Positions 29,342 through 48,390 of a stretch of 54,274 bases of DNA are shown piece after piece. Under the pieces are notes generated by a model. That model saw only the letters and a program-made list of their open reading frames with translations. It had not been told where the DNA came from and ran no database searches. A program made the translations under genes and the position numbers. This DNA comes from Vulcanimicrobiota bacterium. GTDB taxonomy: Bacteria > Vulcanimicrobiota > Vulcanimicrobiia > Vulcanimicrobiales > Vulcanimicrobiaceae. The stretch's first letter is position 1, and the number at the start of each line of letters is the position of its first letter. Location: NCBI GenBank assembly GCA_027452165.1, contig DAIDGX010000021.1, positions 1 to 54,274 of the forward strand. The letters run 5' to 3'.

Positions 29342-31456
29342 ATGGAAGCGCGCCGCACGAGTCTCGAACGCGGGCTCACGTTGGCTTTTGGCCTCGTGAT
29401 CCTCGTCATGATCCTCTCAATCCCCGTGATGTTCTGGGCCATGAACGGCATCACGAGCCAAGCCTCGGTCCTCGATCATCGGGTCATTGCCGGTCAGCTC
29501 GCGTACGCGAAGGTTGCGGCCGACGCCGACAGCCTGCGCTCCGCTACGCTCGAAGCGGCTACCGCGACCGATCCGGCCCAGGCCGCCGCACAATTACAAC
29601 TTGCCAAGACGCTCGTCAAGCAATTCCCTGACGATGCGCGCAAGATGACGAACATCTTCTGCCCGCCGAACCTCGTCGCCAAGGCAAGTGCGAACGATCT
29701 CTCGGCAACGCAGTGCTCGACGAACTCCGACAGCATCGCCAAGCAAATCGGCAAACTCGTTGACACGTTCGGCACAAGCGCGAGCGCCTACGATTTCCAG
29801 GCGCTCTCGGCAGTGAGCCTGCTGCAAGAGGGGAAACGCGCAGACGCGCTCACGCAGATCAACGGCCCCTCCGGTACCGCGTACGAAAAACAAAGCACCG
29901 ACGGCAACACGATGCTCGAGGCGCTCAACGCCCTCGCGACCGATCGTTACGGACGCCTGATTCAAGCTGGAAACTTCGGCTTGATCGCCATGATCTTCGG
30001 CATGATCGCGGCGATCGTCGTTGCGTTCCTCTCCGCATCGTGGTTGCGTTCGGTGATGCTGCGTAGCATCGGCCGGTGCGTCGAAGTCTTCGAGGCGATG
30101 GGCGTCGGCGATCTCTCGCAACGCATCAACTGGCACGGAAACGACGTCCTCGGACGCTTGGGACAGGCGATCGACGAATTCGCCGGCCGTATCTCCGCGA
30201 TGATCGGCCAGATCCAGCACGCGTCGCGCACGGTGCTCGCCGCGTCGGAGCAGTCGAGCGTGATCTCCGTGCAAGTCGATACGCGCGCGAAAGACGAACT
30301 CGCTGCGCTCTCGCAGGCGCAAAACTACTCGCACGATCTTGCTGCCGCCTCCGGAACCGTCGCCGACAACGCCGAAGCGGTCGCACGGCGTGTTTCGGAT
30401 ATCTCGAGCGCCGTTGCGCAGATGACCGCATCGATTCAGGAAATGGATCAGAATTTGCTCAACCTCGCGACCGTCGTGGAGCAGGCGGTCGCGAACACCC
30501 AAGAGATGTCGGCCTCGATCGTTCAGGTCGCGGGCAATGCCGAACGCGTTCGTTCGGAGTCCAACGTCACCGATCAACAAGTGCGCGAAGGCCGCAACGA
30601 GGTGCTCGCGCTCTCCAAAGGCATGGGCTCGATCAGCGATACCGTCGCCGATGTCGTAACCGAGATGCAGAGCCTCGATGGCGCTTCGCGCCAGATCGGC
30701 GAAATTCTCGGCTTGATCGAAGAGATTGCCGACCAAACCAACTTGCTCGCACTCAACGCCGCCATCGAAGCCGCGCGTGCCGGCGAGCATGGCCGCGGCT
30801 TCGCGGTCGTCGCGGACGAAGTGCGTAAGCTCGCAGAAAACTCGGCAAGCTCGACCAAACAGATCGGCTCGCTCGTAGCCGATATCCAACGCCGCACCTC
30901 AGCGGTGCTCGATCGCACGGCCCGCGCAAATTCGCTCGTTCAGAGCAACGCCGAGAGCGCGCGTAACGTGAACTCGATGATCGAGACGATCAGTGCGCGT
31001 GTTACCGAGGTAGCGCAGTTGGTCAGCGAGATCAGCGTGGCAACCACGGAGCAGGCCCGTGCCTCCGAAGAACTTGCCAAGGCAAGCGAACAGATGGGCG
31101 CGATGACGCACGAAGCCGCTGCGACCATGCGCGAACAGGCAATCACCTCGAACCAGATCTTGGAGAGTGTCTCGGAGATCGAAAACCGCACCGCGCAAGT
31201 GGCCCGCGCCTCAACCGAACAGCAAACCTCGATCGAAGCCCTGGGGACCCGCATCCAGCAGTCGGCCGAACTCGGCCGTCAAAATGCCGACGGGGTGGCC
31301 GGCATGGCCGCGAGCGCCGATCAGGTGCGTGCACAGGCGAATAACCTGCGCGATCTGGTCAGCCAGTTCCAGACGGGACAGCTTGCGTTTTCCGAAAATG
31401 AAAATTCCGGGCCGCAGGCCCTAGAAGACCCGGGGGCACTTGCGCTATCATCTTAG
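29342..31456 (+). CDS. methyl-accepting chemotaxis protein
   Basis: 704 residues. Membrane helix 1 (about 11-35), a periplasmic domain of about 170 residues with two cysteines (IFCPPN, TQCSTN), helix 2 (about 210-235), HAMP (about 236-288) and a long signalling coiled coil. The conserved tip lies near residues 452-507 ([21 protein letters not shown], then [17 protein letters not shown]). The C-terminus has no CheR-binding pentapeptide. The sensory domain is not recognisable, so the ligand is unknown. No ribosome site is evident before ATG 29342. The gene is opposite to the flanking ftsQ and ftsA genes. Confidence 0.95.
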
Positions 31457-38150: not shown

Positions 38151-39296
38151 ATGGGCGCCAACCTGTCCGACGGGCCGACCCAAGACGCTGAGCTCCTAGA
38201 AGAGATCGAGCGCTTACGCCGTCGCGTCGCCATCTTGGAGGCCGAGCGGGACGAATACGCCCAGCAGAACGCCGAACTCTTCGTCCTGCAACAAGTTTTT
38301 TCCACCATCAATTCGACGCTCGACATCAACGATATCCTCTCGATGGTGTTACGCGGCGTCGTCGAAGCCCTGAAGTTCAAGCGCGTCGTGCTCTTCGACG
38401 TGATCGAAGGCACCACGATCGTACGGCGGCTCGACTGCGATGCCGTCGGCACGGTCAACCATGCGCTCGACCCGCGTGACTATCGCCAAGGCTCGACGCT
38501 CGAAGACGTGGCCCATGGTGACCTGCAACTGGCCTACGGCAACGGCGATGATCCCGACGCGCCGCTCCACGATGCCCGCGGATCGTATTGCGTCGCACCG
38601 CTCGTGGCCCGCGACGTCGTGCGCGGCATGCTCTACGCCGACGATCCGCCGGGTGCCGAAGTCACCGAGAACCAACTGCGCGTGCTGCTCGATTTTGCCT
38701 CACAAGCGGCGATCGCGGTCGAGAACGCCCGCCTCTACGAAGAGACGCGACGGCTCCTGGAAGAGACGCAGCGGATGGCCAACACCGATGCCCTCACCGG
38801 CATCTTCAACCGCCGTGCCCTCACCGAAATGCTCGATCGTGAACTCCACACCTCGGAACGCTACGACACGCCCTTTGCGTTCGTCATCCTGGACCTCGAC
38901 GATCTCAAAAAAATCAACGACTCCGGAGGGCACAGCCTCGGCGATCTCGCTCTCAAGCGGTTCGCGCAGGTGCTCAAGAAAAACGCCCGCAAGGGCGACA
39001 TCGTCGCGCGGTATGCGGGCGATGAATTCGTGCTGATCATGGGCCAGAGCGATCGCGAGCAAACCACGCGCGGCGTCGAGCGCATCATGTCGGCGCTGCG
39101 GCGCAATGGGCTCTCGACCTCGATCGGCGTCGCAATGTTCCCGGCCGACGGCACCGAGGGGCAGACGCTTTTTTTTGCCGCCGACGAAGCGCTCTATCAG
39201 GCCAAACAAGCAGGCAAAAATCAGTACCGCTTCTACGTCCGCGGGAGCAAGTCGCAGGGGGATTCCCCTGCCGGCGCCGCCGACGTAACCGCCTAG
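38151..39296 (+). CDS. GAF-GGDEF diguanylate cyclase
   Basis: 381 residues. An N-terminal coiled coil (about 12-42), a GAF domain (about 45-190) and a GGDEF domain (about 212-365). The active site reads RYAGDEFVL, an AGDEF variant seen in many active enzymes, and RKGD five residues before it is an intact RxxD inhibitory site. It probably makes c-di-GMP. TACAGT ends five bases before ATG and there is no ribosome site, so the mRNA may be leaderless. It is divergent from dnaE. Confidence 0.93.
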   Translation: MGANLSDGPTQDAELLEEIERLRRRVAILEAERDEYAQQNAELFVLQQVFSTINSTLDINDILSMVLRGVVEALKFKRVVLFDVIEGTTIVRRLDCDAVGTVNHALDPRDYRQGSTLEDVAHGDLQLAYGNGDDPDAPLHDARGSYCVAPLVARDVVRGMLYADDPPGAEVTENQLRVLLDFASQAAIAVENARLYEETRRLLEETQRMANTDALTGIFNRRALTEMLDRELHTSERYDTPFAFVILDLDDLKKINDSGGHSLGDLALKRFAQVLKKNARKGDIVARYAGDEFVLIMGQSDREQTTRGVERIMSALRRNGLSTSIGVAMFPADGTEGQTLFFAADEALYQAKQAGKNQYRFYVRGSKSQGDSPAGAADVTA

Positions 39297-46583: not shown

Positions 46584-48293
46584 CTATCGGAAGAGTCCGA
46601 GGACCGACTGCGCGTTTGCGTTCGACTGCGAGAGAACCGACGTGCCGACCTGCACGAGGATCTGGAGCTTCGTGAATTCCGTCGTTGCCTGACCGACGTT
46701 GAGGTCGCGAATCGAGGATTCCGATGCCTGCAGGTTCACGGCGGCAACGTTGTCGTTCGAGGCATCCTCATTGAGCCGCACGACGACCGAGCCGATCTGG
46801 GCGCGTTGGTTCAGCACGATTTGCAGCGCGTTGTCGATCTGTCCGATCGCGTCCTCCGCCCCAATTGAGGGGTTGTTTGACGCCGAGAGCGCGAGGTTGA
46901 TATTCGAAACGCGCAGCGTCGAGGTATTCGTCGCCTCGATACCGACCTGAATGACGTCGCCTTCGTTGGCAGCCGACTGGAAGTTGAACGCCGGATTGTT
47001 CGGATTCGTCAGTGCTGCGACGTTTTGACCGATCTTTACGTACGCGGTACTGCCGACGTCAAGCTCTGAAATGCCACCGATTGCAATCGATACGTTCTCG
47101 AAGTCTGCAGAGACTTGAAAGGCACCGTAGAGGGTCGAATCGACCGACACGGCTCCGGTAGCACTATTAAAAAACGTCTCTTGGACGGCGATCGAGGCGC
47201 CCGTATTCACCACCTGCAATTCGATGGTTCCATCGACCGTTGCATAGGTTCCGAGGGCGTTATAGGCAACCGCAGTTCCAACCGTCGTATTGAAGTTCGC
47301 GCTTGATGCGGAGATCGTCGCAATCAAGTTAGTCGCCGCCACTTGGCTCACCGGGACCAACTGCACATCGGTAAACTGGTTGTTTCCGGCACCCGAGTTG
47401 ATGAGCGAAACCGTCACTTGCCCGGCCGCATTGGCAGTGAAAGCTTGCGTCGTATAGGTTGCATAACCCGTGTGGACCGTCGCTGCATTCGTCGGGGTGA
47501 CGTTAACGCCGTTTGCCGTAACGCCGACAAAGGCGCCTGCATTGTCGGCGGCTTGATACGTGAGTTGGTAGGCCGCCCCCGGGGTCAGTCCGCTGAGTGT
47601 CTGCGTTGCCGAGGCTCCACCGGAAAACGGTCCGAGCGCCTGGAAACCGGTCGGAACGGCCGGGTCGAAACCGTCATTCCCATTGATGAGTACGAAGTTT
47701 CCACTCAGCGTCCACCCGGGAAGCGACGTCACCACCGCATTCGAGCCAGCGGGGCGTGGAGGGTCGTTGAAGTTTCCGTTATCAAGCAACACCGCGCCGC
47801 CGGCGAGCGCAGTATTTGCGGTGACGGTCACCGTCGCATTTTGCTCGGCTTGAAATCCCGCGTGCGACCCATCCAGCAGTGACTGTCCGTTGAAATTCGT
47901 GTTCTGGGCGATCCGGTTGACCTCGAGCAGCAACTGCGAGACTTCGACTTGCAGGTTCTGCCGGTCGCTGTTCGAGTTGATGTCGGAGGACGCTTCGACC
48001 GCGAGCGAGCGTATGCGCTGAAGGATGTCGGTCGTGGTCTGCAAGGCGCCTTCCGCGACCTGCGCCGCATTGTTCGCATTCTGCACGTTCTGAACGGCAG
48101 CATTGTAGCCGTCCACTTGCGTCTGCAGGTTCGTTGCGATTGCAAGACCCGAAGGATCGTCGGCGGCTGAATTGATCCGCAAGCCCGAAGAAAGCTGCGT
48201 GACAATATTCTTCAGCGCTTCCTGGTTCTTGTTAAGGTTGAGCGATACGTTATTCGCCAACAGATTGTTGGCAATGCTCAAACCTTGTCCCAT
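46584..48293 (-). CDS. fliC: flagellin with inserted jelly-roll-like domain
   Basis: 569 residues. The N-terminal D0/D1 (residues 1-150; NQEALKNIVTQLSSGLRINS, DDPSGLAIATNL) and C-terminal D1/D0 (about 480-569; LNQRAQIGSVVVRL and TEFTKLQILVQVGTSVLSQ, ending in SVLGLFR) are standard. Between them, residues about 169-316 look like a separate module: LDNGNFNDPP, LPGWTLSGNFVLIN, TQTLSGLTPGAAYQLTYQA, then FTDVQLVP. This resembles DUF642/galactose-binding jelly rolls of secreted proteins. A second variable region (about 320-470) follows. ATG 48293 has GGAGG nine bases upstream; an ATG 18 bases earlier is possible. The promoter is sigma-28-like. Confidence 0.93.
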   Translation of the reverse strand: MGQGLSIANNLLANNVSLNLNKNQEALKNIVTQLSSGLRINSAADDPSGLAIATNLQTQVDGYNAAVQNVQNANNAAQVAEGALQTTTDILQRIRSLAVEASSDINSNSDRQNLQVEVSQLLLEVNRIAQNTNFNGQSLLDGSHAGFQAEQNATVTVTANTALAGGAVLLDNGNFNDPPRPAGSNAVVTSLPGWTLSGNFVLINGNDGFDPAVPTGFQALGPFSGGASATQTLSGLTPGAAYQLTYQAADNAGAFVGVTANGVNVTPTNAATVHTGYATYTTQAFTANAAGQVTVSLINSGAGNNQFTDVQLVPVSQVAATNLIATISASSANFNTTVGTAVAYNALGTYATVDGTIELQVVNTGASIAVQETFFNSATGAVSVDSTLYGAFQVSADFENVSIAIGGISELDVGSTAYVKIGQNVAALTNPNNPAFNFQSAANEGDVIQVGIEATNTSTLRVSNINLALSASNNPSIGAEDAIGQIDNALQIVLNQRAQIGSVVVRLNEDASNDNVAAVNLQASESSIRDLNVGQATTEFTKLQILVQVGTSVLSQSNANAQSVLGLFR

Positions 48294-48362
48294 CCCTGAG
48301 TCCTCCATGAATCCCGGCACGAGCGCCAAACGAGAAGAGATCCTTCCCCTCTCTAGGTACAG

Positions 48363-48390
48363 CTATCGGTTTCACCACTAGGCAACTTTA
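48363..48390 (-). promoter_or_regulatory. sigma-28-like promoter of flagellin
   Basis: On the minus strand TAAA (48390-48387), 16 bases, then ACCGATAG (48370-48363), close to TAAA-N15-GCCGATAA. Transcription would start near 48355, giving a 60-base leader with a good ribosome site. The chemoreceptor gene has a matching element. Confidence 0.65.

Follow-up and report, generated by a model that had tools for sequence, protein, structure and literature searches.

Flagella stick to surfaces and, to our knowledge, a dedicated adhesive domain usually cannot be named in flagellar adhesion. Plant DUF642 proteins are secreted, carry two DUF642 domains and contain conserved cysteines. Insertion of folded domains into flagellins has been described by Eckhard et al. 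2017 (PMC5595980), with 61 domain types in the variable regions of 26,587 flagellins and a characterised peptidase type. DUF642 is absent from the printed top ten of the table in that paper, and no DUF642/CBM-type insertion in a flagellin was found in the literature, where DUF642 combined with flagellin gives unrelated plant papers. Inserted domains are already known from the variable regions of flagellins; the DUF642/CBM-type insert described here is apparently new. In work cited in PMC6784106, some plant DUF642 proteins bound cellulose and, to a lesser extent, hemicellulose in vitro, and the plant members are described as seed-plant-specific (PMC4264326, PMC6784106). Among flagellins, p5 of Sphingomonas sp. 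A1 is reported to bind alginate (reviewed in PMC8286568). Alginate binding in vitro was also seen for FliC of E. coli (PMC8286568), which means that p5 need not have a dedicated CBM-type module. The first cultured representative of the Eremiobacterota has no flagellin (PMC9758169), so the insert-bearing flagellins of this phylum have, as far as we found, not been studied in culture.

The window flagellin and its inserted domain

The gene analysed here (Table 1) lies in the window, the whole stretch of 54,274 nucleotides under study. Its reading frame, on the minus strand, has no internal stops. The encoded protein has the domains Flagellin_N (residues 7-143, E-value: 7.4e-36) and Flagellin_C (residues 484-568, E-value: 1.1e-14), both over the Pfam cut-off. 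In a sequence search of the PDB the best matches of the core are flagellins, and the 'Flagellin homolog' chains 3k8v and 2zbi, which we take to be Sphingomonas sp. A1 p5, are among its matches. In a profile comparison the protein is nearer to flagellin than to FlgL models, and in cluster C9 of the same genome the FlgL position, with flgK on one side and fliW on the other, is taken by a separate gene. By its sequence, the window protein can be classified as a bacterial flagellin (FliC-type) with intact ends. It contains no cysteine and one tryptophan (W194, in the PGWT motif). The flagellin gene stands alone, with an aldehyde-dehydrogenase-type gene on one side and a GntR regulator on the other, and these neighbours offer no operon clue. 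Elsewhere the window encodes a methyl-accepting chemotaxis protein (29342-31456) and a GAF-GGDEF diguanylate cyclase (38151-39296), which fit a motile, surface-sensing lifestyle.

Table 1. Position of the flagellin gene, its predicted parts and its upstream signals in the window
Feature	Position	Strand	Description and basis
Flagellin CDS with inserted DUF642/galactose-binding (GBD) domain	46584..48293	-	569 aa + stop; open frame, Pfam
D0/D1 N-terminal core, residues 1-150	47844..48293	-	Pfam Flagellin_N
Inserted DUF642/galactose-binding-like jelly-roll domain (predicted fold), residues 165-317	47343..47801	-	Site A, after TVTANTAL; Pfam, AF2, Foldseek
Native beta-rich outer domain (D2), residues 322-476	46866..47330	-	Common to the family's insert-free flagellins
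D1/D0 C-terminal core, residues 477-569	46587..46865	-	Pfam Flagellin_C
Sigma-28-type (flagellar) promoter TAAAGTTGCCTAGTGGTGAAACCGATA	48364..48390	-	Motif, single window match
Ribosome-binding site GGAGG, 8 nt 5' of ATG	48302..48306	-	Sequence

A sigma-28-type element (TAAAGTTG-N12-ACCGATAG) is found 97 bp upstream of the start codon. Its core pattern has one match in the window and none in 100 shuffles, and a strict or loose version occurs in 38 of 98 flagellin-type upstream regions, mostly 92-117 bp upstream. These features fit control of the window flagellin by a sigma-28-type factor. The pattern was not found for a paralogue in the same genome that carries its insert at another site (site B, described below).

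A preliminary description of the locus had placed a DUF642/galactose-binding module at about residues 169-316 of the flagellin. This assignment is borne out by Pfam, in which DUF642 (PF04862) matches residues 169-306 with 42.9 bits (curated cut-off 27, E-value: 5.5e-11), and the landmark motifs that had been listed are all present (NGNF, 172-175; PGWT, 192-195; TQTLSGLTPG, 230-239; FTDVQL, 307-312). Two orthologous inserts are also over the cut-off (L105/L013, 35.3 bits; L107/L014, 33.5 bits). The insert of the site-B paralogue (L011) stays under the Pfam cut-offs (HpiC1-like, 25.8 bits; DUF642, 17.1 bits), yet it matches DUF642-like HMMs. A control HMM, trained solely on non-flagellin DUF642-type domains from the same bacterial family, matched the window insert with 20.9 bits (E-value: 1.4e-5); all 10 flagellin inserts tested scored at least 20.7 bits, the best of 1000 insert shuffles reached 8.1 bits, and insert-free flagellins were absent among the matches listed. 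When six flagellin inserts (A1) were aligned with four canonical DUF642 domains (A3) using hhalign, the probability was 90.8 (E-value: 1.2e-6). The domain is not a member of the choice-of-anchor C family (TIGR04362; 23.9 bits, NCBIfam cut-off 120). Sequence matches to solved sugar-binding proteins are weak (6yf6, E-value: 0.003; the CBM 1gui, E-value: 0.059), and CBM_35 and CBM60 match a related tandem domain, L056a, under the cut-off. No DUF642 was found in viral contigs, and plasmid records gave no match.

The fold was predicted with AF2 from the isolated domain and five homologous inserts from other genomes (six sequences in all). The model has a mean pLDDT of 87.2 and a pTM of 0.83, with 10 strands and no helices; the whole flagellin, run as a single sequence, gave an uninformative pLDDT of 40.8. 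A Foldseek search of the PDB returned 96 matches at an E-value of at most 0.001. Among the 50 of these that were listed, those with a probability of 1.00 include CBM4-2, CBM61 with galactotriose, CBM16, CBM6, CBM22, a porphyran-binding CBM and the C-terminal domain of the EclA lectin; further matches listed are an alginate-binding CBM, galactose-binding-like domains of glycosidases and Cry proteins, and phage tailspikes, and none of the 50 is a flagellin. TM-scores over the query are about 0.45-0.65, and so the fold class is clear and no single family can be assigned. A named CBM assignment meets the same picture, in that the fold matches several families and sequence matches to PDB CBMs are weak. 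The viral Foldseek library gave a like result, tail fibre and tail proteins of phages being numerous among the matches. In the predicted structure, then, the inserted domain is a galactose-binding-like jelly roll, and by its Pfam score it belongs to DUF642. Structure prediction and Foldseek, the checks proposed in the preliminary description, thus gave an all-beta domain, predicted with confidence, and CBMs and lectin-like modules as the solved structures closest to it; an ordinary flagellin D2/D3 fold lacking a jelly roll, the outcome that would have spoken against the proposal, did not appear in the prediction.

Sister flagellins, distribution and origin of the insert

The source genome (G000; 2.64 Mb in 27 contigs, 95% complete) encodes three flagellins besides that of the window. 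One of these, L010, is insert-free and belongs to the cluster flgG-flgI-flgK-flgL-fliW-fliC (contig C9); it shares 97% amino acid identity with the N-terminal core (residues 1-150) of the window protein. At site A the sequence is VTANTALATNGNIASTGGINYGFLAATV in L010, and VTANTAL, about 155 residues and NLIATIS in the window protein. Judged from these aligned residues, the insertion is clean relative to L010. Two large family-2 glycosyltransferase-domain proteins, one of them with TPRs, are encoded directly after this main flagellin gene (L010:9572-14383), and filament glycosylation is possible. A second sister flagellin (C23:374443-376179) has a related jelly roll at site B, which is about 45 residues beyond site A, between AGFG and TVDGSIQIQV; in the window protein this loop is inside the native D2, immediately before TVDGTIELQ (352-360). 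Close to the end of the contig, the site-B flagellin is followed downstream by an rve integrase-core gene (L011:10518-11399). The genome also encodes a member (C23:6004-7926) of a second class of long flagellins (L012, L066, L070, L082, L084, L088 and L091), which have an outer region of about 400 aa of a different, unnamed type with a motif like QTVKVSDAQYIQPG.

A genome scan using the whole flagellin as the query found 69 relatives, and the domain HMM was applied to the collected flagellin and FlgL-type ORFs. DUF642-type domains are present in flagellins of nine Eremiobacterota genomes, at site A (window, G001/L105, G012/L107, G015/L109 and L106), at site B (G000 C23, G026/L108 and G119/L057) or as a tandem pair replacing the usual outer domain (G038/L056, G113/L058 and G115/L059). 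The domain HMM did not find the domain in about 85 other flagellin or FlgL-type ORFs collected. The inter-core region is mostly 160-240 residues long without an insert, as opposed to 325-353 residues with one. In a profile search of the phylum Eremiobacterota, 9 of 149 genomes match, all from one family. Two flagellins (L016 of G002, and L110) have other, shorter, beta-rich-looking inserts in the same site-A loop. A descent of these from worn-down DUF642 domains was not supported (hhalign probabilities of 10.8 and 4.9; no Pfam match). The orthologous GBD flagellin of G001 (C34:145047-146777, L105/L013) is interrupted in its N-terminal core by a single in-frame TAG. Given this disrupted copy and the different insert in G002, the domain is dispensable in the genus. 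The disrupted gene adjoins an intact insert-free flagellin gene.

A tree of the jelly rolls places the site-A, the site-B and the tandem domains each in a group of their own, and canonical secreted DUF642 proteins fall outside these groups. The tandem domains (L056, L058 and L059) are nearest to the terminal domains of the giant repeat proteins L060 and L061. Giant surface-type proteins are found in G026 (C26, L188:1-5001) and G002 (C33, L060), the former with repeats of about 20 residues ('Q[IV]xAL') and three or four jelly-roll domains at its end. In a tree of D0/D1 cores, each of the GBD flagellins of the window, G012 and G015 is paired with the same genome's insert-free flagellin (support 99/99, 100/99 and 100/99). 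In a tree of the native D2, the window protein, L105, L106, L107 and L110 form one group (98/91), and the G015 flagellin pairs with its own tandem neighbour (93/99). The core and D2 trees disagree, and therefore the outer parts and the cores have different histories; the D2 tree indicates that the site-A state arose at least twice. The paralogous cores in the window's genome are 97% identical as protein and only 55% identical at third codon positions, which excludes recent gene conversion between the two flagellins. The similarity between the cores of one genome may go back to old gene conversion, or the subunits, which would assemble together, may have become adapted to each other.

Proposed function and alternative explanations

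The role that we propose for the inserted domain can be sketched as follows. A flagellin with a sigma-28-type promoter would have gained a DUF642/CBM-type jelly-roll cassette in a surface-facing D2 loop. Its D0/D1 region, in which the cores are intact by sequence, would still polymerise with the other flagellins of the genome, and one jelly roll would point outward from every copy in the filament. The jelly roll would bind polysaccharide with low affinity and high multivalency (biofilm EPS, plant or moss cell wall, or another soil glycan), and the flagellum could then act as an adhesive or tethering fibre as well as a propeller, a role suggested by the fold and by DUF642 and CBM function. The D2 loops would be cassette slots, taking DUF642-type domains in two loops and, in further relatives, other inserts in the same loop. 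We consider the chances about even that, through the jelly-roll cassette in the D2 loop, the filament surface binds polysaccharide multivalently and serves in adhesion. Sugar binding and adhesion are suggested by the binding reported for plant DUF642 proteins, by the mostly glycan-binding fold neighbours and by the Sphingomonas A1 precedent. The single tryptophan is part of the conserved PGW motif, and so there is no obvious tryptophan platform; the jelly-roll fold also serves in protein binding, in enzymes (HpiC1-like cyclases) and in structural spacers. Further points that weigh against sugar binding and adhesion are the weak sequence matches to solved sugar-binding proteins, the rapid divergence of the insert, the in-frame TAG of the G001 copy and the other insert found in G002. 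A broader and more tentative reading is that the Eremiobacterota filament is a modular multivalent lectin, with D2 loops that are standing insertion slots for CBM-type jelly rolls (two loops, single or tandem) and several glycan specificities per genome.

An explanation that we regard as rather unlikely, although sheath-forming outer domains give it a strong precedent, is that the jelly roll is structural and has no sugar ligand: packed with its neighbours, it would form a sheath or a screw-like surface and so stiffen the filament of a cell that swims through viscous or porous media. In soil and gut bacteria, dimers and tetramers of flagellin outer domains form sheaths that affect motility (PMC8931119). 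The insert also diverges fast, with 48% amino acid identity between the two closest species as opposed to 76% for D2, which is more like a spacer or weakly constrained surface than a conserved binding site. However, most of the nearest solved structures are modules that bind glycans, polysaccharide binding is reported for DUF642, and the presence of the same fold in two loops is better explained by recruitment of a ready-made binding module than by a packing interface evolved in place.

Surface variation, in which interchangeable inserts act as decoys against flagellum-using phages, predators or host recognition and the exact fold matters little, is clearly improbable. It would account for the different inserts in one loop among close relatives (mostly DUF642, with apparently unrelated shorter ones in L016 and L110), and also for the quite different outer region of about 400 aa in other flagellins, the conflict between core and D2 trees, and the rve integrase-core gene downstream of the site-B flagellin. 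The inserts are not random, however, as one fold recurs in three arrangements, and several flagellins with differing surfaces are kept side by side in one genome, so that a single variant would bring less advantage. Still less probable, in our estimate, is that the domain binds the cell's own glycans (on glycosylated neighbour flagellins or in its own EPS) and so holds filaments together in bundles or fixes them in the biofilm matrix, rather than binding to a foreign surface. The two glycosyltransferase-domain proteins encoded after L010 in the flagellar cluster would suit this explanation, but glycosyltransferase genes commonly adjoin flagellin genes.

For the adhesion model, the value of the locus is that a recognisable carbohydrate-binding-type module is built into a filament subunit, beside insert-free sister flagellins in the same genome, and so the question of a purpose-built polysaccharide adhesin can be tested directly on the isolated 150-aa domain. 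The locus is also a natural, loop-precise example of a jelly roll carried on a flagellin.

Comparison with known systems

The window protein resembles flagellinolysin and the other flagellins of Eckhard et al. (PMC5595980) in having a folded domain in the central variable region and close relatives that are insert-free. The inserts of note in that paper are metallopeptidases, vWFA and sialidase, whereas the window protein lacks HExxH and has no peptidase family matches in Pfam. Like the DUF642 cell-wall proteins described in PMC4264326 and PMC6784106, of which Arabidopsis BIIDXI is an example, the window domain belongs to PF04862, has a predicted galactose-binding-like jelly roll and is probably extracellular. 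It does not fit the plant-type definition, being a single, cysteine-free domain inside a flagellin; tandem pairs do exist in the flagellins L056, L058 and L059. CBM families 4, 6, 16, 22 and 61 and lectin-like galactose-binding domains are alike in predicted fold (probability 1.00, TM-scores up to 0.65). The likeness is one of predicted fold, with 12-22% sequence identity, and unlike those CBMs the window domain is not attached to an enzyme. Sphingomonas p5 is similar to the window protein in being a flagellin with polysaccharide binding, which is putative here, and differs in that it is a cell-surface receptor for alginate uptake (PMC8286568).
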